DNA from: Bacillus sp. REN16
GTDB taxonomy: Bacteria; Bacillota; Bacilli; Bacillales; Bacillaceae_L
Direction of reading: 5' to 3'
DNA length: 58,989 bases
Assembly (NCBI RefSeq): GCF_020731355.1
Contig: NZ_JAJFZK010000003.1
Location: 322,503-381,491 of the forward strand
The notes under the pieces were generated by a model that had not been told where the DNA came from, ran no database searches, and saw only the letters and a list, made by a program, of their open reading frames with translations. Of the stretch, positions 20,308 to 31,099 are shown piece after piece. Both the position numbers and the translations under genes were made by a program. Every line of letters starts with the position of its first letter. Position 1 is the stretch's first letter.

Positions 20308-21645
20308 TTAAAATGACACATATTGAAGTGGGTTCACTGCGTTTGAGTGTCCTCCACTATATTGAGTTGGACTATATGGACCATCATAGATTTCAAAGTG
20401 AAGATGCGGGCCAGTTGAGTCTCCTGTATTCCCCATGAAGCCAATCAATTGACCTTGTTCGACTCGGTCATATTGATTAACAAAACGTTGATCTAAATGC
20501 GCATAAACGGTTGTCATTTGACGGCCATTGATATAGTGGGTAATCATGATGACATTTCCGTAACTGCTTTCCAGACGGGAACGTGTAATCGTGCCGCTAG
20601 CGGCTGCATAAATTAGAACATTTCCTACGCGACCACCTTTTCCTATATCAATTCCGAAATGCATTTTCCCCCAACGCATTCCAAAACCAGATGTTAAACG
20701 TCCTGTTGTTGGATTCATAAATGATCCATTATTTACGACAGGTGGTGGTGCATCAGGTAGAGGAGGTGGAGTTTTTCCTTCCGCTTCAGCCTTTTTCCGT
20801 TCCTCTTCGCTCCTTATCCGTTCTTCTTCAGCTTTTCTTCGTTGTTCCTCAAGCTCTGCTTGCCTTTGGTTCCATGCATTGATTTCCATCTGAATCGCTT
20901 TTTCCTGTGCAGCTAATAATTCTCCGACATCTTCTAATGAGTGGAGCTCCTCATGCATCTTTTGTTCTTCTGCCTCTAATTGAGCCATTACTTTATTTTG
21001 TTCTTTAATTTGGGCTTGTAACTGAACTTCTAACCGATCAAGCTCTTTCAGCTGGTCTTCTTGCTGTGCAAGTAAGGAGTGAACCTCTGCTTTATTAGCC
21101 TCAAGCAGTTTAATGTCTGCTTCATGCTCTTTCATAATTTCACGGTCAGCTTGTACGAATGCAGATACCGCGCTAATTCGGTTAATAAAATCATTAAAGC
21201 TTTTCGCACCGAGTAACACATCCACATAGCTTACAACTCCACCGCTTTGCTGAAGGCTTCGCATCCGCTCTTTGATAAGCTCGTCCCGCTTCTGAATCCG
21301 TTCCTCAAGTACCTTCATTTCTGCCTCAAGGCGCTCAATTTCTTCTTTTGTTTCTTGGATTTGCGCTTTTGTACTCTCAATTTTGCTGCGTGTATCATTT
21401 ACGGCAAAATCCAGTCGTTTAATCTCCTGTTCGACACCAACTTTTTGTTGTTTGATTTCACCAATCGCATTTTCCTTTTGAGAGATTTCAGATTCTAGCT
21501 CTGATTTCTTTTCCTGGACTTCTTTTTTCTCATTTTCTAGCTTTTCATTTGTTTGAATCGCTAATGCAGTGTTGGGCATAGCTGTCAATAAACTTCCGAG
21601 TCCTATTGACACACCCATTCCAACCATTAGAAGTTTGCGCTTCAA
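20308..21645 (-). CDS. secreted coiled-coil murein hydrolase, PcsB/EnvC-like with M23 domain
   Basis: The 445-aa protein has a signal peptide (cleavage near ALA-IQ, residue ~29), a long Glu/Lys-rich coiled coil over ~35-280, a Pro-rich linker (PPPLPDAPPPV) and a C-terminal M23 (LytM) domain. The metal ligands are visible as HFGIDIG, and HLDQR and GPHLHFEI in the C-terminal half, so the domain looks catalytically intact. The architecture matches EnvC/PcsB hydrolases that are activated by FtsEX during division, but ftsEX is not adjacent. Upstream, TGTAAT with a degenerate second half (near 21800) recalls a WalR site, only weakly. Confidence 0.85.
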   Translation of the reverse strand: MKRKLLMVGMGVSIGLGSLLTAMPNTALAIQTNEKLENEKKEVQEKKSELESEISQKENAIGEIKQQKVGVEQEIKRLDFAVNDTRSKIESTKAQIQETKEEIERLEAEMKVLEERIQKRDELIKERMRSLQQSGGVVSYVDVLLGAKSFNDFINRISAVSAFVQADREIMKEHEADIKLLEANKAEVHSLLAQQEDQLKELDRLEVQLQAQIKEQNKVMAQLEAEEQKMHEELHSLEDVGELLAAQEKAIQMEINAWNQRQAELEEQRRKAEEERIRSEEERKKAEAEGKTPPPLPDAPPPVVNNGSFMNPTTGRLTSGFGMRWGKMHFGIDIGKGGRVGNVLIYAAASGTITRSRLESSYGNVIMITHYINGRQMTTVYAHLDQRFVNQYDRVEQGQLIGFMGNTGDSTGPHLHFEIYDGPYSPTQYSGGHSNAVNPLQYVSF

Positions 21646-21875
21646 CGAAATAGCATCCCCCTTCTACCAACCTAGCAATCTATCATTTAAATCGGCATGG
21701 ACAGTATTCATTCCCACCCACAATTATCATATTTTGCTATATATTCTCATGTTTTGTATTATAACATAAAAAATTGTCTCAAAACGTCAAACTAATATTA
21801 CAATTTCATTTCATCATCTATTGAAAACACTGGGTTTTGGTTAAGATTTTTCGACAAAGATAGAATACGTACAAA

Positions 21876-21908
21876 AACAAAAAACCCGCCCCTTTTTAGA
21901 CGAGTTTC
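21876..21908 (-). terminator. terminator of the racemase/MurE-like operon
   Basis: On the minus strand AAACTCG and CGGGTTT, with one G-T pair, form the stem and TTTTTTGTTTTTG follows. It lies about 20 bp after the racemase stop and marks the operon end. Confidence 0.65.
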
Positions 21909-21926
21909 ATATTGTTCCCTACATAT

Positions 21927-22634
21927 TTACTTGAGACGCTTGCCTGAGCGTAAAATGGATTTCTCCACTAATACATTCATCGCATCAATACTATATTTCA
22001 TGGCTTCATCATTTAATTTGATGCAGGATAATTCCGTACATGCCAAAATGACCATTTTACAATTTTCTTCTTCAACAAGATGCTTAATTAACTGTTCAAG
22101 CTCACTTGAATCAACATCGAGATCACTTTTAACATTGTTATAAATGATGTCCATAACCTTTTCTTGTAAGTGATCATTCGGAGCTAAAAGCTCCAGCTGA
22201 TACTTCTTACAAACATCAGCATAGATTCCGCTGCGAATCGTCCCGTTTGTAGCAAGAATGCCAATCCTTGCGCCTTCACCATACATATCATGAATTTCTT
22301 TAATCGTTTCTTCTACCATGTTGATGATCGGGATCTCTGTCAGCTTTTGCAGCTCATCGTAAAAATAATGTGATGTGTTACAAGGAATGGCAATGTTTGC
22401 AACCCCTGCCGCTTCTAGCAGCTTAAAATCATTTTTTACAGCATCTATAAACGTTTCACCTGTGTTTGTAAGGATTGCATGGGTTCGATCTGGAAGAGTT
22501 GCGTGATTAAGGATGACCATATTGAGATGGTCCTGGTCCTTATGAGCCTCTGTTCGGTTGACAATTTTATCAAAGAAAACAGAGGTTGCCTTTGGGCCCA
22601 TACCCCCGATAACACCTAATGTTTTATGTTCCAT
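21927..22634 (-). CDS. aspartate/glutamate racemase family protein
   Basis: The 235-aa protein belongs to the PLP-independent Asp/Glu racemase family. It begins EHKTLGVIGGMGPKATSVFF, and both catalytic cysteines are in place: NIAIPCNTSHYFYD (near residue 82) and MVILACTELSCI (near 198). The GGMGP start and spacing favour aspartate racemase over MurI. The ATG at 22634, preceded by AGGTG, is preferred to the GTG at 22652. It is the last gene of a five-gene operon with an ATP-grasp ligase and asparagine synthetase, which suggests that D-Asp is made for ligation and amidation. Confidence 0.85.
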   Translation of the reverse strand: MEHKTLGVIGGMGPKATSVFFDKIVNRTEAHKDQDHLNMVILNHATLPDRTHAILTNTGETFIDAVKNDFKLLEAAGVANIAIPCNTSHYFYDELQKLTEIPIINMVEETIKEIHDMYGEGARIGILATNGTIRSGIYADVCKKYQLELLAPNDHLQEKVMDIIYNNVKSDLDVDSSELEQLIKHLVEEENCKMVILACTELSCIKLNDEAMKYSIDAMNVLVEKSILRSGKRLK

Positions 22635-22654
22635 GTCTACACCTGTTTCCACTT

Positions 22655-23440
22655 TTACTTAACTGTCATTGCATGACTTCCCAAATCTTCATAGCTTGCG
22701 AAGAAGGCATCTGCATCATATGTGATTTGTCCGTGCAATGGATTCATAACGTGTACCTTGTCGCCTACATAGCCATTAAGGACAACTGCATGTAAATTCG
22801 TTGGCGCATCGAACTTTTCGTTGGTACCGTTAATATTCCAAGAATAATTCACTTTTTTCTTACTCAAGTCCAAGGTTACCCAAATAACCACTGGATTCCC
22901 CTCTTCAAGCTCCATCATGATTTCCTCACGAGAACTTCCGCTTAGGTCGACGGGTTCTAATTGAGCCCCTACCTCTTCAATATACGTTTTAGCTGCCTGT
23001 ACAATTGGCGGGGCATAGGTAAAGAATCCACTCATTTGTCGCGGGTTTCCGGCATATGCCTTATGTGGGTCTGGCCCATACAGTACATTGTTGATTGTTT
23101 TAAACTGCTCCTTCGGCAAATAATGGTCAGCCATGTCCAATTTGGAAACACGATAGCCAAAAAAATTGAATAGCGAGGTTAAGGAGGTAATTTCACAACC
23201 GTTTGGTAACTCCGGCAATTGGAGTACCTCCTCGACTGGAATAAACACTTCAATTTCACCGTTCGATACTTCACGATATGGATTGGTTTCCTGAGCATAC
23301 ACTTTTGTGAGCCCAGAAAACGCTCCATCTGTTTCAGAGAGCACACTTCTAGCAATTCCCTTAACGGTTTCAACATTAAGCATTAAATATACGACACATA
23401 TGAGATTCAAAAATAATAGTGCTGTTACTATTTTTTTCAC
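22655..23440 (-). CDS. membrane-anchored C39-like cysteine peptidase
   Basis: From a GTG at 23440 (AAAAGGGG upstream) the protein is 261 aa: an N-terminal hydrophobic segment (signal anchor, residues ~4-22) and an extracellular C39-like papain-fold domain. The catalytic Cys is in LPNGCEITSL, the His in NLHAVVLNGY near residue 220, followed by MNPL. C39-like domains of this type occur in secreted peptidases or amidases and not only in bacteriocin exporters. The GTG start fits better than the ATG at 23467. It lies between asnO and the racemase in one operon, so it may cleave or transfer the product of the pathway outside the cell. Confidence 0.8.
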   Translation of the reverse strand: MKKIVTALLFLNLICVVYLMLNVETVKGIARSVLSETDGAFSGLTKVYAQETNPYREVSNGEIEVFIPVEEVLQLPELPNGCEITSLTSLFNFFGYRVSKLDMADHYLPKEQFKTINNVLYGPDPHKAYAGNPRQMSGFFTYAPPIVQAAKTYIEEVGAQLEPVDLSGSSREEIMMELEEGNPVVIWVTLDLSKKKVNYSWNINGTNEKFDAPTNLHAVVLNGYVGDKVHVMNPLHGQITYDADAFFASYEDLGSHAMTVK

Positions 23441-23519
23441 TTCTATCTGCCCCTTTTCGAACACCATTTTACACTGTTAGAAAACCACTAGAAATCATGT
23501 ATATGTGAAAAAGGTAATT

Positions 23520-25367
23520 TTATAACTCGATAAAGAACTTCTTATACCACACAAGGAATACATAGACCGTATAGATGTATCTTGCATAGTTATGTCTTCC
23601 ATGGTAGTGGTCATCAAGGTATTTCATAAGCTCATCTGTATTAAAGAATTCTTTTGCAATATCAGATTCGAACATTTCCTTTACGATATTGTAATATTTC
23701 TCTTCACGAAGCCAATGTCTCATTGGAACAGGGAATCCGACTTTTTCGCGTTTTGCCCATTCCTCTGGGAGCACCTTTTTGGAAGCAGCACGAAGAGCAT
23801 ATTTTGTATCAATATCATTTACTCGTAAATTCGTCGGAATGTGAGAAGCCATTGACATGACCTCTTTGTCTAAAAATGGTACCCGTAATTCAATCGAGTG
23901 AGCCATACTCATTTTGTCTGCTTTTAAGAGGATATCCCCTGGCAGCCAAAGCTTGAGGTCAAGATACTGCATTTTCGAAACATCATCTTTCCCTTTAACC
24001 TTATCATACACTTTTTTTGTAATACTTTGTATAGAAGGGCCAGTTTGATATTCATCCTTTAAGACTTTGCGAGCATCCTCTTCCTCAAATATCTTCGCTT
24101 GGCCGATGAATTTTTCTTCTACCGGCTGACCACCCTTGATAAGGAAGTTTGTGATTTTATTTTTAGGCAGTGCAGCGCTGATTCCTGAAATCGCACGACG
24201 GATCCCAAATGGAATCTTTTCGTATTTTTCTAGCTTTCCAGACTTTTGATACCAGACATAGCCGCCAAAGATTTCATCTGCCCCTTCACCAGAAAGAACA
24301 ACCGTTACATGCTCACTGGCTAATTTCGATAAAAAGTACAATGGAACCGATGATAGGTTTGATTGTGGCTCATCCATGTGATATTGAATCGTAGGCAGCA
24401 TCTCAAAAGCCTGATCTGCGTTCATCAGTTCTTTGTAGTTCTCAATTTCAAGGATATCCGATAAATCCTTAGCTAAGTTTGTTTCATTGAAGATTCCCTC
24501 ATGATCTTGGAATCCTACGGAAAATGTTTTATTAGGCATTAATAAAGCCGTGATATAACTAGAGTCAACCCCGCCTGAAAGGAACGAACCAACCTTTACG
24601 TCACTAATTTTGTGGTAGTTCACAGATTCCTTTAAGGTATTGTTAATTTCCTCGATATAGTGGTCAAGCCCTTTATCTTCAGCGTTAAAGTCAATATCCC
24701 AATAAGGTTTGATTTCGATATTTCCTTTTTTATAGAGCATGTAATGACCAGGCTTTAATTTATAAACACCTTTAAAGAAGGTCTCATCAAGCACTGAATA
24801 TTGGAAGGTTAAATAAGGCTTAATCGCATCTTTATTTAACTCTTTCTTAAAAGCTGGCTGTTTTAAAAACGACTTGATTTCAGAGCCGAAAATCAGTGAG
24901 TTATCAGTCGTATTTTGGGTATAGTATAAAGGCTTAATCCCAAAGAAATCACGTGCTAAAAACATGGACTCATTGTTTTTATCCCAAATCGCGAAAGCAA
25001 ACATTCCGCGAACCTTTTGTAAGAGGTCCACCCCATATTCCTCGTACGCATGGACGACAACTTCACTGTCAGAACCGGATTTGAAAATATGGCCTTTTTC
25101 AATCAAATCCTCCCGCAGCTCTTGATAGTTGTAGATTTCACCATTGAAAACTAAGACACAGCTACCATCTTCATTGAGCATCGGCTGGCTTCCTTCATCA
25201 GATAAATCAATGATACTTAGGCGACGAAAGCCTAATGTTGTATGATCGTCTGAAAAATAGTTGCCACTATCAGGACCTCTATGAATGATTGTGTCCATCA
25301 TCTCATTTATTACTTTTACTTTATCTATTTCAAGCTTTGAATCAGCAAACCCAACGAAGCCACACAT
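23520..25367 (-). CDS. asnO: asparagine synthetase (glutamine-hydrolysing), AsnO-type
   Basis: The 615-aa enzyme has a class II glutamine amidotransferase domain starting at Cys-2 (MCGFVGFAD; R in RRLSIID; NGEIYN) over ~1-210 and a synthetase domain over ~230-600 with the ATP pyrophosphatase loop SGGVDSSY near 263. Length and sequence fit B. subtilis AsnO (YisO), the sporulation-linked paralogue. Its RBS AAAGGTGA overlaps the stop of the MurE-like gene, so expression is coupled. Members of this family also amidate bound Asp (AsnH of lactic acid bacteria amidates D-Asp of cross-bridges). The operon context makes that alternative substrate worth testing. Confidence 0.9.
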   Translation of the reverse strand: MCGFVGFADSKLEIDKVKVINEMMDTIIHRGPDSGNYFSDDHTTLGFRRLSIIDLSDEGSQPMLNEDGSCVLVFNGEIYNYQELREDLIEKGHIFKSGSDSEVVVHAYEEYGVDLLQKVRGMFAFAIWDKNNESMFLARDFFGIKPLYYTQNTTDNSLIFGSEIKSFLKQPAFKKELNKDAIKPYLTFQYSVLDETFFKGVYKLKPGHYMLYKKGNIEIKPYWDIDFNAEDKGLDHYIEEINNTLKESVNYHKISDVKVGSFLSGGVDSSYITALLMPNKTFSVGFQDHEGIFNETNLAKDLSDILEIENYKELMNADQAFEMLPTIQYHMDEPQSNLSSVPLYFLSKLASEHVTVVLSGEGADEIFGGYVWYQKSGKLEKYEKIPFGIRRAISGISAALPKNKITNFLIKGGQPVEEKFIGQAKIFEEEDARKVLKDEYQTGPSIQSITKKVYDKVKGKDDVSKMQYLDLKLWLPGDILLKADKMSMAHSIELRVPFLDKEVMSMASHIPTNLRVNDIDTKYALRAASKKVLPEEWAKREKVGFPVPMRHWLREEKYYNIVKEMFESDIAKEFFNTDELMKYLDDHYHGRHNYARYIYTVYVFLVWYKKFFIEL

Positions 25368-25374
25368 AGTTTTA

Positions 25375-26895
25375 TCACCTTTTTAGTTTTATAAATTTTC
25401 TGGTTGTCTGTAATTTAAGTTTGTTTTTCCGTTTATTCTCTAGTAGTTCATGCACAATCTCTTTTTCATTAAACGGAATTTCCTCATTGCCAATTACTTG
25501 TGCTGTTTCATGGCCTTTTCCTGCTAGAAGGATAACATCCCCATCCTGACTGTTATCAAGTGCATATTTAATCGCTTCTTTACGATCAATTTCAACATGA
25601 TATTTACCGTCAACTTCATTCATGGATTCTATTATTTCCTTCACGATTAAATTTGGATCCTGCTCCTTAGGGTTATCAGAAGTAACAATCGATAAATCAG
25701 CATAAGTAGCTGCAACTTTTCCCATCGCTCTTCTTTTTTCACTGCCATCTTTTCCTGGTGCAGCATAAACACCAAAGACCACAATGAGTCTTCCTTTTGT
25801 ATAAGGTCTTAAGGTAGAGAGGGCTTTTTCTAAACCATCTTCCGTGTGAGCAAAATCAACGACAACTTTTCGACTTTTATCCTGATAAATAACCTCAAGT
25901 CTTCCTTTTATTCCTTTTACAGCGTCTATTCCTTCTTGAATATCTTCCAAAGATATCTGATTGATGTATGCTGAAGCGATGGCTGCTAGACTATTATAGA
26001 CGAATATAACACCTGGAATATTTACTTTAATTTCTGCTGTACCAGTCGGTGTATTCAGTTGAAATGTACTATAATCTGCATAAAAGTGAAGATCAGTTGG
26101 GTATATATCCGCTTCCTGGTTGATACCATACGTCGTAATCGATTTACCCGAATCTTTTACCTTTTCCAATAGCCTTCTTCCATATGGATCATCAACATTG
26201 ATGACTACATGATCCTGGGCAAGATCAAAAAGCTTAGCCTTGGCATTAAAATACTCTTCCATATTTTTATGAAGCTCCAAGTGGTCGGGCGTTAAATTCG
26301 TAAAAATCGCTGTATTAAAATTACTATCGGCGACACGATTTAAATCCAAGGCATGCGAAGAAACTTCCATAATGCAATCTTCAATGCCCTCATCTACCAT
26401 CTTTGAAAAAGTCTCCTGCAAATGTAATGATTCAGGAGTCGTATTTTTCGTTTCAAAATGCCTATTGTTTATTATAGTACCCATTGTCCCTATCAGACCA
26501 ATGGATTTTTTTGCCTGTTCAAAGATTGATTTTACAAAATAGGTTGTAGATGTTTTACCATTTGTCCCGGTAATCCCTATCAGATTTAATTTTTCAGTCG
26601 GATTTTCATAAAAGTTTGCTGAAATCCGCGCTAACGCTAATCTTGTATCCGAAACCTTAATGATTGTTACAGGGTCCTCAAACCATATATCTCTTTCAAC
26701 GATTATGACAGAGGCACCATTTTTAATCGCTTTTTCAATATAGTTATGACCATCCACTGTAAATCCGGAAATTGCAACAAAAACACCGTTCATCGTTGCT
26801 TCTCTCGAATCAAAAGCGATTGAGGTCACATCTACTTCAAGGCTTCCTTTTATTTCGGTATAATCAAGATTCCTTAAAATTGATTTTAAATGCAT
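25375..26895 (-). CDS. MurE-like UDP-MurNAc-tripeptide ligase paralogue
   Basis: The 506-aa protein (ATG 26895, GGAG 8 bp before) has all three Mur-ligase domains: N-terminal UDP-sugar domain (AFDSREATMNGVFVA), central ATPase (GTNGKT at 110-115; NTTPE; EVSSHALDLNRV; the lysine in NAKAKLF) and C-terminal amino-acid domain (GKGHE). Recognition of a UDP-MurNAc-L-Ala-D-Glu-like substrate thus looks intact. The amino-acid pocket differs: DNPK at 407-410 replaces DNPR of meso-DAP enzymes, and the usual GGDRD segment is GVYAAPGKDG. It probably adds another amino acid. It is second in the five-gene operon; the housekeeping murE is expected in the dcw cluster elsewhere. Confidence 0.85.
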   Translation of the reverse strand: MHLKSILRNLDYTEIKGSLEVDVTSIAFDSREATMNGVFVAISGFTVDGHNYIEKAIKNGASVIIVERDIWFEDPVTIIKVSDTRLALARISANFYENPTEKLNLIGITGTNGKTSTTYFVKSIFEQAKKSIGLIGTMGTIINNRHFETKNTTPESLHLQETFSKMVDEGIEDCIMEVSSHALDLNRVADSNFNTAIFTNLTPDHLELHKNMEEYFNAKAKLFDLAQDHVVINVDDPYGRRLLEKVKDSGKSITTYGINQEADIYPTDLHFYADYSTFQLNTPTGTAEIKVNIPGVIFVYNSLAAIASAYINQISLEDIQEGIDAVKGIKGRLEVIYQDKSRKVVVDFAHTEDGLEKALSTLRPYTKGRLIVVFGVYAAPGKDGSEKRRAMGKVAATYADLSIVTSDNPKEQDPNLIVKEIIESMNEVDGKYHVEIDRKEAIKYALDNSQDGDVILLAGKGHETAQVIGNEEIPFNEKEIVHELLENKRKNKLKLQTTRKFIKLKR

Positions 26896-26932
26896 TGTTA
26901 TCACTCCAATTAATGACCTTAACTTTATTGCA

Positions 26933-28114
26933 TTATCTTTTCATTTTTTTTAGCAGCTTTTTTGAAATCATACCGGCATAGGATAACGCAGGCTTCGGGT
27001 CTTTCCAGTCCCATATCGCATATGCTTTCGGTTTAAAGAAGGATTTTATAACCTGTGCCTTTGTTAATTGACCTGTTTTTAAATAGCCCTTGATTGCGTA
27101 GAAGTCTTCGTATGCATACCAAAAGACCAGGTTCGTATCGTGTTCTATCGCCTTAGGGGGCAGCGGGTTACCTGTTAATTCTCGATATGTGATGTAAGGA
27201 AAGTTAAGTCCTGCCTTATATAACAAACTGTTCAGGTTGGTGATCCTTACATTTAATTCGATTAAGTAATACTTCCCAGTTTCTTCATCTTTTTTAAACT
27301 CAATTTCTACAAAGCCTTTGAACCCAATCGCTTCCAAAAATTTAGAACCAATTTCGTAAAGCTCTGGAACGTATTTCTGCCCCGTATATACGGACGCGCC
27401 AAAATTAATCGGGTATTGGCGGTATTTTTGACAGGTCATCCAGTGTGATACCTTCGCTTCTTGATTTAAATACGCGTCAAATGTATACATATGGTCATCG
27501 AAACCTGGAATGATTCGTTGGACTATCACTTCCTGATTCGCTTCTTTTGCTTTATTTAAGGCTTCGTCTAATTCCTGACGATTATGAACCTTAAATAATT
27601 TCCTGCGAAAGATCGAAACAAAGGTAGGTGAATCAGTTGGTTTTACTAAACATGGAAATTTAATATCTTCTTCAATTTTTTCATAAAAGTTTTCTTCTCC
27701 AAGATGGACGGTTTCAGGTACCGCAACTCCGTGTTCCACGGCCAGCTTATGTAATTCATCCTTATCCATCGTTTTTGTATAAAGGCCCTGCTCGGTTTGA
27801 GGGATAAGATAGAACTCTTTTAACTCATCTAAATATTGATCTATCACTTCTACATAGGAGTCATGACATGGAATTAACACCGGCTTTGCCGTTTGTTTTC
27901 TTCCATATTCCTTTAAAAAGGATATAAATTGTTCCGTTTCTTTTCGATAATGGGGAGCGATTACCCGTTCCGAACAATATTTGGATTCCGCACCGTATGT
28001 ACCCTCGTAAGAATAATCAACGGCTACTGTATGGATCCCTTTTGTACCCAGACATCTCATTGTGCTTAAACCTATATAATAGTTGTTTCCTAAAACAACA
28101 GCTTTATTGTTCAT
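26933..28114 (-). CDS. ATP-grasp carboxylate-amine ligase, D-aspartate-ligase-like
   Basis: The 393-aa cytosolic protein has a Rossmann-like N-terminal domain (VVLGNNYYIGLSTMRCLG), an ATP-grasp core with the ATP lysine in FPCLVKPTDS near 155, the VQRIIPGFDDHMYTF strand, and the Mg-binding IELNVR near 285. The overall pattern resembles D-aspartate ligase (Asl) of Enterococcus/Lactococcus, which attaches D-Asp to Lys of UDP-MurNAc-pentapeptide. It is the first gene of the operon, preceded by AGGAG, and is followed by MurE-like, AsnO and, at the end, a racemase. The family call is firm, the D-Asp specificity is inferred from context. Confidence 0.8.
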   Translation of the reverse strand: MNNKAVVLGNNYYIGLSTMRCLGTKGIHTVAVDYSYEGTYGAESKYCSERVIAPHYRKETEQFISFLKEYGRKQTAKPVLIPCHDSYVEVIDQYLDELKEFYLIPQTEQGLYTKTMDKDELHKLAVEHGVAVPETVHLGEENFYEKIEEDIKFPCLVKPTDSPTFVSIFRRKLFKVHNRQELDEALNKAKEANQEVIVQRIIPGFDDHMYTFDAYLNQEAKVSHWMTCQKYRQYPINFGASVYTGQKYVPELYEIGSKFLEAIGFKGFVEIEFKKDEETGKYYLIELNVRITNLNSLLYKAGLNFPYITYRELTGNPLPPKAIEHDTNLVFWYAYEDFYAIKGYLKTGQLTKAQVIKSFFKPKAYAIWDWKDPKPALSYAGMISKKLLKKMKR

Positions 28115-28249
28115 TCCTACCAGACTCCTTGATTAGCTTCCTAATTTGACTCTTTGTCTAATATTACAATATTGACACAGAATAAGGGGTGTTTCAAGAT
28201 GAAATACCGCTTATACCCGCTTGTTATCAGGTTGTAACAATTGAAATGT

Positions 28250-28365
28250 GCAAGGCGCTTAGCCTTAGGCGACAAGCATAAGACGAGCGCTGACAGAAGG
28301 CGCAATTTGCCTTCAGAAGCGATTGGCTAGACCAGAGAGCCGATGGCGCCTGAACTAGACAACAA
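28250..28365. repeat. G+C-rich dispersed intergenic repeat
   Basis: The segment stands out by composition from the A+T-rich flanks. It has several short inverted repeats (AAGGC-GCAATTT-GCCTT; GGCTAGACCAGAGAGCC) and no open frame. It resembles repeats scattered in Bacillus intergenic regions. It lies upstream of the ATP-grasp operon and could carry or disturb its promoter. No other feature is recognised in 28115-28473. Confidence 0.45.
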
Positions 28366-28473
28366 AACTGAAAAATAAAAACAAAAAATAGAGTACAGTA
28401 AATATATGATTTCGTACTCCATTTCCCTTTTACGACTTAGTTCTATTATATACTATTCCACAATTCCACTCTT

Positions 28474-29229
28474 TTAAGGCTCAATCGGAAAGTGAAATTT
28501 TTGATCGCTTGTTCCTGAACTGGAAAAACTCCGTTCCGCATAATGAATTTCGGTATCCGACATTAATAATACGGTTGAGCTTCTCGTCCCATACCCATTT
28601 GTTTGAATAAATAAGGAAGATAGTATTCGTTCCCATTCAAGGGACACGCCAGTTTTGGGCAGTAGATTGTCATTTGGCCGGTCTGTGTTCTGCAATAACT
28701 CGAACAAGTCCTCCACTAAATTTTCTCCCTTAATAATGGTTGAAAGCCCTTCTTTTCCTTTTTCGACCTTGGGCCAGTTCGTATTGAGCAAATGGTTGCT
28801 TAACCCATGAATACCCGGCTTTACTTTTTCGAGGCTATTTCCGACATTTGAATAATAATAAAGGTCATCAGGGCCACCTACTAGTAGATTGTAACCAGGA
28901 TACTGTGAATTCGTCTTCTCCGCCTGTTTCATATATTCTGCAATCTGTCCATCGTAGGTAAGAGCATCTTTTACGAGTTTTCCTCTCGACTGTTTTCCTT
29001 CTGAAACTTCACTTGGGTCCCGATAGTTCGTGATCGCCGCAAAACGTCCAGCTTTCGTGACCCCCATCCAAGTTCCCATTTTTTCGAGATCCCTTCCAGC
29101 CAATAGGTTCGGCTCATCCTCCCAGAAGTGAATCGGAGCCGTCGGTCGTTGAAGGAACTCATCCCGGTTTGCTGCAACAATGAGTTTATAGACCGGATGC
29201 TTCTTATAGGCGAACAAAATTAAACACAT
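28474..29229 (-). CDS. NRDE (TANGO2-like) family protein
   Basis: The 251-aa protein starts MCLILFAYKKHPVYKLIVAANRDEF, with the Asn-Arg-Asp-Glu motif that names the family. The start at 29229 leaves a cysteine at position 2, as expected for a possible N-terminal nucleophile fold; the seven codons upstream to 29250 are rejected on that ground. A GGTGGG lies upstream. Further conserved segments are GTWMGV and NYRDP. The bacterial function is unknown; the eukaryotic homologue TANGO2 is linked to lipid and haem handling. It is a single gene. Confidence 0.85.
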   Translation of the reverse strand: MCLILFAYKKHPVYKLIVAANRDEFLQRPTAPIHFWEDEPNLLAGRDLEKMGTWMGVTKAGRFAAITNYRDPSEVSEGKQSRGKLVKDALTYDGQIAEYMKQAEKTNSQYPGYNLLVGGPDDLYYYSNVGNSLEKVKPGIHGLSNHLLNTNWPKVEKGKEGLSTIIKGENLVEDLFELLQNTDRPNDNLLPKTGVSLEWERILSSLFIQTNGYGTRSSTVLLMSDTEIHYAERSFSSSGTSDQKFHFPIEP

Positions 29230-29311
29230 TTTACCCACCGCCTTTTTCACAAATTATAGCATTTGATTGCTATTTTCGTAAAAATCTTGGCTTGGATAAA
29301 AACCACCATAC

Positions 29312-29339
29312 AAAAAAGCAAGGGCGATTACCCCTGCTA
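29312..29339 (-). terminator. terminator of the acsA-like gene
   Basis: On the minus strand AGCAGGGG and CCCTTGCT (one mismatch) pair around TAATCG and are followed by TTTTTTG. Confidence 0.7.
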
Positions 29340-29386
29340 ATATGACGAAACTTATTTCTATTAGGTTACACTTTCTAGATATATCC

Positions 29387-31099
29387 TTATGAAACCTGAT
29401 GTGCATTTTGAAGTTCACGTGCTTTTAGCTCTCTTCTTAAAATTTTCCCGCTGATCTTTGTTTTTGGAAGTTCATCCAATACCTCAATTTCCCTTGGTGC
29501 AGCATGGGCAGCCAGATTTTGTTTAACAAACACGCGAATATTTTCCAGTAAGTCCTCTGATGGACTATAGCCCCTCTTTAAAACGATAAAGGCCTTAACA
29601 ATTTCTCCTCTTATCGTGTCGGGCTTTCCAATCACACCTGCTTCAGCGACTGCCTCATGTTCAATTAGCTTGCTTTCAACTTCAAACGGACCAATACGTT
29701 CTCCGGATGAATTGATCATATCATCACTTCGCCCCTGGAAAAACACATATCCGTCCTCATCTAATACAGCTAAATCACCTGATATATACCAACCATTTAC
29801 AAAATAGGAATTAAACTTCTCTTGATTTTTCCATACTTCTTTCATAATAGCTGGCCAGAAAGCCTTGATGCCAAGGTGTCCAACCTGACCATTGGGAAGT
29901 ATATTTCCATCATCATCAAGGATCGCAACTTCAATTCCAGGAAAAGGTCTTCCCATTGAGCCAGGCTTAATAACCTCTGATGGCAAGTTGACGATTAATT
30001 GCGCTCCTGTTTCAGTCATCCACCACGTATCATGGATTCTTTTCTGTAAAGCCTCGATCCCCCAGACGATGACCTCAGGATTTAACGGCTCTCCTACACT
30101 TAAAAGATGTCTTAGTGAACTCAGATCGTATTTTTCCAGCACATCGTCTCCCTCTGCCTTCAGCATTCTGAATGCAGTAGGGGCACTATACCAAACCGTC
30201 ACCCCTGTTTTTTCAATGGTTGAATACCAGGAATCAGCATTAAATCGTCCGCCATTAACGACAACTGTTGCGCGATTTAGCCAAGGAGCAAAAAGTCCGT
30301 ATACGGTTCCCGTTACCCAGCCAAGATGTGCTGTACACCAATAAACATCATTCTCTTTTATATCAAGGACCCATTTTCCTGTTTGGTACTGCTGGATCAT
30401 TGCTCGATGTGCATGTACAATTCCCTTTGGTTTCCCGGTTGATCCGCTCGTATAATGAATATTAAGGCGGTGCTCAAGATCTACCCATTCAATAATATCA
30501 GTCTGGGGCTTTGTTTTTGCTAATTCCTCTACGAGTGAGATTTCAGCTTCCTTACACTTTTCCGGCCCTTCTGTAATAAACACTATTTCTAATGAAGGTA
30601 AGTCCTGTTTCGGAACCCTCTTTACCAACTCAGAGTCAGTGATGAGAAAGCGACCTTCACAGTCTGAAATCCGGTCCTTCACCGCATCCTCCATGAATGC
30701 TTCAAAAAGTGGCCCAACAACAGCCCCAAGCTTAATCGCAGCAATCATCGCAATATGATTTTCCGGGTTTTTCGGTAAAAAGATAAACACAATATCTCCC
30801 TTTTTAACACCGTTTTTTTTCAAAACGGTTGCTAGATGGTCTGATTTATCTTTGATATCTTTAAATGTAAAAACTTGTTCTTCATCTTCATTAATATAGT
30901 GAAGGGCGACTTTGTCACCATACCCATCTGCTACATGGCGGTCAATGCATTCATATGCCATGTTTACTTGCTCCGTTTGGTACCAGCTAAATTCCTTTTC
31001 AACATCCTCCCAGAAAAAATTCTGGAAAACCTTATCATAGTTTTGAAGATTATAGTCTCCGTCAAAAGGTTTTATGAAATTCAATTCTGTGGCTGTCAA
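29387..31099 (-). CDS. acsA: acetyl-CoA synthetase paralogue (AMP-forming acyl-CoA ligase)
   Basis: The 570-aa adenylate-forming enzyme resembles B. subtilis AcsA over its full length. Motifs: HYTSGSTGKPKG (P-loop, near 216), TWWMTETG (near 362; the Trp restricts the pocket to acetate-sized acids), and C-terminal PKTKISGKILRR with the catalytic, acetylatable Lys. Differences from B. subtilis AcsA: CTADPGW reads CTAHLGW here, and one residue is inserted before SGK. The start is TTG with AAAGGGG upstream. It begins 18 bp after the ABC ATPase gene stop, so it is probably in that operon and may activate an acid related to the imported compound. Acetate is the default substrate. Confidence 0.82.
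   Translation of the reverse strand: MTATELNFIKPFDGDYNLQNYDKVFQNFFWEDVEKEFSWYQTEQVNMAYECIDRHVADGYGDKVALHYINEDEEQVFTFKDIKDKSDHLATVLKKNGVKKGDIVFIFLPKNPENHIAMIAAIKLGAVVGPLFEAFMEDAVKDRISDCEGRFLITDSELVKRVPKQDLPSLEIVFITEGPEKCKEAEISLVEELAKTKPQTDIIEWVDLEHRLNIHYTSGSTGKPKGIVHAHRAMIQQYQTGKWVLDIKENDVYWCTAHLGWVTGTVYGLFAPWLNRATVVVNGGRFNADSWYSTIEKTGVTVWYSAPTAFRMLKAEGDDVLEKYDLSSLRHLLSVGEPLNPEVIVWGIEALQKRIHDTWWMTETGAQLIVNLPSEVIKPGSMGRPFPGIEVAILDDDGNILPNGQVGHLGIKAFWPAIMKEVWKNQEKFNSYFVNGWYISGDLAVLDEDGYVFFQGRSDDMINSSGERIGPFEVESKLIEHEAVAEAGVIGKPDTIRGEIVKAFIVLKRGYSPSEDLLENIRVFVKQNLAAHAAPREIEVLDELPKTKISGKILRRELKARELQNAHQVS

Follow-up and report, generated by a model that had tools for sequence, protein, structure and literature searches.

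A five-gene operon of Bacillus sp. REN16 as a probable mobile module for D-Asp/D-Asn bridging of a non-diaminopimelate peptidoglycan precursor

Among the systems described so far, the closest to the one considered here belong to lactic acid bacteria, where AslA is reported as an ATP-grasp D-Asp ligase, racD lies in its operon in Lactococcus lactis, and AsnH amidates the bridge (PMC4155827); ATP-grasp ligases are described as forming both D-Asp and D-Glu cross-links (PMC2922099). An operon built of similar elements was analysed in a stretch of 58,989 nucleotides of Bacillus sp. REN16 (the window, positions 322,503 to 381,491 of contig NZ_JAJFZK010000003.1). It occupies positions 21927–28114 and consists of five intact open reading frames (ORFs), all on the minus strand, as the preliminary description of this DNA had stated, in the order ATP-grasp ligase, MurE-like ligase, asparagine synthase (AsnO), C39-like protein and racemase; the families were named from Pfam and NCBIfam models. 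With the AslA (Aslfm)–RacD–AsnH set it shares a homologous ATP-grasp ligase, an Asp-type racemase, an Asn-synthase-type amidotransferase and conserved linkage, but its ligase falls into a separate clade, a dedicated Mur ligase, apparently not specific for diaminopimelic acid (DAP), and a C39-like protein form part of it, and its hosts also carry a DAP-type MurE. Judging from sequence data, the operon is probably a self-contained, mobile peptidoglycan-precursor module for a D-Asp/D-Asn bridge on a non-DAP stem. The pathway as such is of a known kind; what is new is the arrangement, which would consist in its own non-DAP Mur ligase existing in two interchangeable forms, its own clade of ATP-grasp ligases, an optional pair for amidation and C39 action, and mobility across spore-forming Bacillota. 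No paper on this gene set was found in the open-licence literature searched.

The first gene (26933–28114, 393 amino acids (aa)) encodes an ATP-grasp carboxylate-amine ligase (Pfam Dala_Dala_lig_C, 2e-9), the proposed D-Asp ligase. It is followed by a type A MurE-like ligase with DNPK in place of DNPR (25375–26904, 509 aa, Mur_ligase_M, 4e-58), a putative non-DAP diamino acid adder; by a glutamine-dependent amidotransferase of the AsnO/AsnH type (23520–25367, 615 aa, Asn_synthase, 3e-87), a candidate for D-Asp to D-Asn conversion; by a protein with the C39-like cysteine peptidase fold (22655–23467, 270 aa, Peptidase_C39_2, 2e-23), proposed to be an extracytoplasmic wall enzyme; and by an Asp/Glu-type racemase (21927–22652, 241 aa, Asp_Glu_race, 4e-39), the presumable supplier of D-Asp. 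The operon is as compact as previously noticed, with gaps of 28, 7, 52 and 2 bases from 5' to 3' for the start codons used here; the range of 7–79 bp given earlier depends on the choice of start codons. From this composition we infer the following succession of events. The Mur ligase would add a non-DAP diamino acid, most likely L-ornithine (L-Orn) and possibly L-lysine, to UDP-N-acetylmuramic acid (UDP-MurNAc)-L-Ala-D-Glu, the racemase would convert L-Asp to D-Asp, and the ATP-grasp enzyme would couple D-Asp to the side-chain amine of the diamino acid. AsnO, where present, may then amidate the D-Asp bridge to D-(iso)asparagine, and the C39-like protein may act on the amidated bridge outside the membrane.

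Conservation of the gene set was estimated with the ATP-grasp gene as an anchor for all locus comparisons. Scanning of named genomes yielded 189 ATP-grasp relatives, and the top 80 were retained; 79 of them (L074 had no ORF), supplemented with L037, L047, L049 and the window, make up 83 distinct loci, after eight duplicates were dropped. A Mur ligase gene lies no more than two genes from the anchor in 81 of these loci, and in 78 it is located directly downstream on the same strand. Genes for racemase, AsnO and C39-like protein follow downstream in the same orientation in 71, 28 and 25 loci, respectively: 43 loci have the racemase only, 25 all three, three AsnO with racemase and 12 none of them, while a co-oriented C39 gene without AsnO was met in none of the 83. 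Since the identical gene order is found again in other species, the five-gene arrangement cannot be a product of chance. The preliminary description had proposed to search genomes for co-occurrence and order of the five families and had named a lack of conservation as the outcome that would speak against its reading; the gene set turned out to be conserved. The closest relatives of the window ligase are those of Bacillus sp. HNG and B. timonensis AF060A6 (94–95% identity), followed by Ferdinandcohnia onubensis (82–83%), and across all aligned relatives orthologues are 59–95% identical. The anchor gene is present in 8 of 9 genomes of the REN16 genus and in 24 of 396 genomes of the order sample (8 from this genus, 10 Halobacillus-like, 2 from genus g9 and 4 others), 18 of these 24 belonging to the Halobacillus-like genus, that of Ornithinibacillus bavariensis or that of REN16; in the class sample, where up to four candidates were scored per genome, it was registered at E 1e-100 or better in 2 of 398. 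The hosts comprise Bacillaceae, Paenibacillaceae and Clostridia, including Acetoanaerobium. Chromosomal surroundings of the module vary between lineages, and it therefore moves as a unit.

DNPR is the motif that marks DAP-adding MurE enzymes, and it is present in all 16 chromosomal MurE proteins checked. The REN16 genome has six Mur_ligase_M matches, one of which is an ordinary DNPR MurE, 41% identical to the DNPK copy of the operon, in line with the full MurE paralogue reported before. The operon enzyme possesses all three Mur domains, the P-loop and the TTP motif. It keeps the fold and the UDP-MurNAc-side motifs of MurE, but DNPR is changed to DNPK in type A and missing from type B. Type A occupies the slot in 35 loci (the window, two close relatives and 32 others) and is characterized by DNPK and GKGHE in 35 of 35 and TTPE in 34 of 35 copies. 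Type B, found in 46 loci and about 30% identical to type A, has TATNGKT and, in all 46 copies, TTPE, but lacks DNPR, GKGHE and the DYAH form; in the 45 copies uncut by contig ends DDHFAN replaces DYAH and the DNP motif is absent. Both exceed the cut-off of the murE subfamily model (257), with scores of 490 for the window protein and 280–292 for type B, and each forms one clade apart from chromosomal MurE (support 99 and 100). The type of Mur ligase changes at least eight times on the ATP-grasp tree, at least four of these changes being forced by supported branches, and between type A and type B strains of the REN16 genus the ATP-grasp, AsnO, C39 and racemase proteins are 82–95% identical, against 29–30% for the Mur ligases. 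Since such unlike enzymes substitute for each other in place, they most likely share one reaction, and because neither type has the DAP motif, which all 16 checked chromosomal MurE possess, this reaction is probably not DAP addition. Taken together, motifs and exchange make it very likely that types A and B catalyse a common reaction other than DAP addition.

An alternative assumes a bridge module on a normal DAP stem, in which case the Mur ligase would be either another MurE of the DAP type or a paralogue resembling a regulator, while D-Asp/D-Asn would decorate DAP peptides or some other acceptor. Retention of GKGHE and most of the MurE fold in type A and the conservative replacement of Arg by Lys in DNPR are in favour of such a scenario. 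However, type B has neither DNPR nor GKGHE nor the DYAH form and yet takes the place of type A, and another DAP ligase would duplicate the function of the DNPR MurE, which all 16 genomes checked possess; we consider this alternative unlikely. Combination of ATP-grasp and Mur-type modules is also a feature of cyanophycin synthetase, and a small amino-acid polymer had been suggested initially as a possible product. In the operon these modules are separate proteins, cyanophycin-synthetase models give 122 and 25 bits at a cut-off of 850, and preservation of MurE motifs on the UDP-MurNAc side would have no reason, making synthesis of a cyanophycin-like polymer hardly conceivable. With regard to the novelty of the second Mur pathway suggested earlier, a second MurE-like line does exist beside the DAP-type MurE; it is a new arrangement rather than a new pathway, and it does not supplant the DAP cross-link of Bacillus, because the genome retains its normal DAP-type MurE. 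This retention suggests that the module provides a second precursor line in this species. One more clade of MurE-like proteins, with DDLN at the DNPR position, was observed in L142, L144, L204, L205 and L207 (Halobacillus-like bacteria, O. californiensis and P. globulus PG).

Addition of D-Asp to a non-DAP stem is proposed for the ligase. Comparison of profiles by HHalign reveals homology between the operon enzyme and ligases of the AslA type (probability 99.9, E 3e-34), and the AslA-clade model matches the window enzyme at 3e-39; a search with the profile of operon ATP-grasp proteins detected AslA-like proteins elsewhere among the Bacilli. Of 19 AslA-like loci inspected (L170–L188), the majority have neither racemase nor Asn synthase within 1.5 kb; a racemase is a neighbour in L170, L172, L174, L178 and L180, and an Asn synthase in L178, L183 and L184. 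In Latilactobacillus curvatus aspS is followed by the racemase and then by the carboxylate-amine ligase; in L. fermentum this ligase has no adjoining racemase. A natural replacement was found in G775, a genome of the O. bavariensis genus: a type B Mur ligase, 77% identical to that of O. bavariensis, stays at the same place without adjacent ATP-grasp and racemase genes, and an AslA-clade ligase is encoded elsewhere in the genome. This swap is counted as one case. A clean either/or distribution of the operon and AslA-type ligases within this genus, where 2 of 11 genomes are devoid of the operon ligase, was considered and rejected, as the tree puts only G775 into the AslA clade. The ligase might also add D-Glu or another D-amino acid, and two circumstances allow for it: the operon enzyme lies outside the AslA clade, and D-Glu is a known substrate of ATP-grasp bridge ligases, as mentioned above. 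However, an aspartate-type racemase, needless for D-Glu, accompanies the ligase in 71 of 83 loci, and in G775 the two were lost together at that place, so that this option seems very improbable. The analogy with the lactic-acid-bacterial set drawn in the preliminary description is thus borne out by homology and gene swaps, and its idea of a peptidoglycan-type precursor with D-Asp/D-Asn gains support from conservation of the gene set as well. Separately, ATP-grasp relatives with 29–30% identity (L038 and L039) were noticed in plasmid clusters of Cytobacillus spongiae and Priestia megaterium together with PIG-L deacetylase and glycosyltransferase genes.

The three other proteins have the following features. 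The best match of the racemase in PDB is aspartate racemase 1jfl (E 6e-42), and both catalytic-type cysteines are in place (motifs CNT and CTE). AsnO begins with MCGFVG, contains SGGVDSS, and is 43–47% identical to the C-terminal part of the synthase adjoining AslA-like genes in three loci; the REN16 genome has one other full-length paralogue of the AsnO type. The C39-like protein has an N-terminal membrane anchor, as judged by eye, and the expected Cys and His motifs, Cys91 and His226 being the same in all 24 sequences aligned. FemAB proteins form bridges in peptidoglycan. In the Paenibacillus locus L128, the operon next to the module runs in the opposite direction and encodes AsnO (66% identical to that of the window), an AslA-clade ATP-grasp ligase, FemAB (Pfam 5e-50) and a SpaA-domain C39 protein; according to clustering, L126 and L109 have the same arrangement. 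Such a neighbourhood links AsnO and C39 to the chemistry of bridges, the amidated bridge being the suggested target of C39. FemAB-type cross-bridge sets are comparable with the module in this respect, but the window operon itself has no FemAB gene. In L109, L126 and L128 two bridge systems are placed side by side, one operon running from AsnO to C39 and the opposed one composed of ATP-grasp, MurE and racemase genes.

Another option is that Mur and ATP-grasp ligases, acting independently of UDP-MurNAc as in the N-acetylglutaminylglutamine amide (NAGGN) system, produce a small peptide that is soluble or exported, such as an osmolyte, a signal or an antibiotic-like compound. AsnO scores 400 bits with the amidotransferase model of this system, and ATP-grasp relatives do occur in sugar or secondary-metabolite-like clusters. 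The score, however, is below the cut-off of 570 for TIGR03104, for which reason the NAGGN system proper was discarded. Moreover, the Mur ligases keep the TTP motif of MurE and exceed the cut-off of its subfamily, FemAB adjoins the AsnO/C39 pair in Paenibacillus, and the module is ubiquitous in a genus with an unusual wall, all of which leave the small-peptide scenario rather unlikely.

The genus in question is represented by G022 and was taken as Halobacillus, since its ligases are 81–88% identical to those of nine named Halobacillus loci. Walls of Halobacillus and Ornithinibacillus are of the L-Orn-D-Asp type. The operon ATP-grasp ligase is present in 22 of 22 genomes of the Halobacillus-like genus and in 9 of 11 genomes of the genus of O. 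bavariensis. The AslA-clade model gave no strong AslA-type match in any of the 22 Halobacillus-like genomes, three of which have an additional weak match near 1e-29. O. bavariensis itself has seven Mur_ligase_M matches, of which only the DNPR copy and type B appear to be of the MurE class, the weakest three having been judged by score and position. The L-Orn-D-Asp wall type is reported to occur infrequently, with reference to genus descriptions (PMC9781867).

A number of observations do not fit the proposed bridge on a non-DAP stem so readily and should be weighed against it. Operon ligases and AslA-type ligases make up two different clades (support 99 and 100, respectively), and enzymes from sugar-type clusters are roughly as close by sequence as AslA-type ones. 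No racemase is adjacent in 12 of 83 loci. The racemase of the window, with 198 bits, passes the cut-off of 190 for NF052483, the model of cysteate racemase CuyB; the model also fires (212 bits) on the L174 racemase located beside an AslA-like ligase and, therefore, does not discriminate. The replacement ligase of G775 belongs to a subclade without adjacent racemase and may use D-Glu. G779, which lacks the operon ligase, has a DNPR MurE but no non-DAP one, and its only AslA relative branches deeply; in the REN16 genus G006 is devoid of the ATP-grasp gene, while G001 combines it with a deep-branching AslA relative. In Halobacillus, O. californiensis and P. globulus PG further MurE-like ligases could perform the ornithine step, which makes its assignment to the module less certain there. 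Genera with DAP walls harbour the module as well, among them Paenibacillus, in which meso-DAP is described as common, though for species other than those found here (PMC9867441).

Based on the whole set of data one can tentatively propose, as a serious possibility rather than the expected outcome, that many DAP-walled spore-forming Bacillota hold a mobile cassette for a second peptidoglycan with an Orn/Lys stem and a D-Asp/D-Asn bridge, which is used beside or instead of the DAP type under some condition, and which became the main wall in Halobacillus and Ornithinibacillus. Two unrelated clades of Mur ligases, one with a rebuilt C-terminal active site, would be interchangeable in it. If so, the module provides candidate genes for the L-Orn-D-Asp wall type, a decades-old classifier of Halobacillus-like bacteria, and explains how wall chemistry may jump between lineages as a cassette. 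Bacteria classed as DAP-type would then be predicted to be able to make a second wall unit, and two independent clades of Mur ligases would become available for studying the choice of the third amino acid.

Regulatory signals of the operon were judged from the sequence upstream of the ATP-grasp gene and downstream of the racemase gene. A sigma-A-like promoter (TTGAAA, 17–18 bases, CAATAT/AATATT) is located at positions 28168–28197 of the minus strand and is conserved in seven aligned upstream regions of the genus, being so far a match to the consensus only. Sporulation-specific expression, considered earlier as a possibility by analogy with asnO, is disfavoured by this promoter; inspection by eye, made without a scan, revealed no consensus of sporulation sigma factors. 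The terminator reported for the end of the operon corresponds to a hairpin at 21881–21908 (minus strand), found by a hairpin scan 3' of the racemase gene. The hairpin exists, but alone proves nothing, because the number of terminator-like sites is not above that in shuffled sequences (6 versus 5.8 expected). A search of positions 21600–29400 against Rfam gave no match with an E-value of 0.1 or lower. A stretch of 138 bases (28225–28362, minus strand) lies between the operon promoter and the TANGO2-family gene; at least 41 copies of it with 78–100% identity are present in the REN16 genome. It is found at this site in some strains and absent in others, has no Rfam match and an RNA fold z-score of only −1.7, and looks like a dispersed small repeat or a miniature inverted-repeat transposable element-like sequence.

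On the other side, just downstream of the operon, a PcsB-like protein with an M23-type C-terminal part is encoded (20308–21645, minus strand). In 22 of 83 loci (L053, L059, L060, L066, L067, L073, L116 and others) the racemase gene is followed, immediately or at a short distance, by a gene for a protein of about 85–140 aa with the conserved core FLxxSFxDG...RELRLS, which is possibly a sixth member of the module or its regulator; two copies tested had no Pfam match, and there is no convincing match to it in the window. Of the 83 loci, 23 have a PcsB-like gene within 4–6 genes downstream; in nine loci of the Halobacillus-like group, the operon and the PcsB-like gene are separated by a gene for an FtsX-like membrane protein, named by eye.

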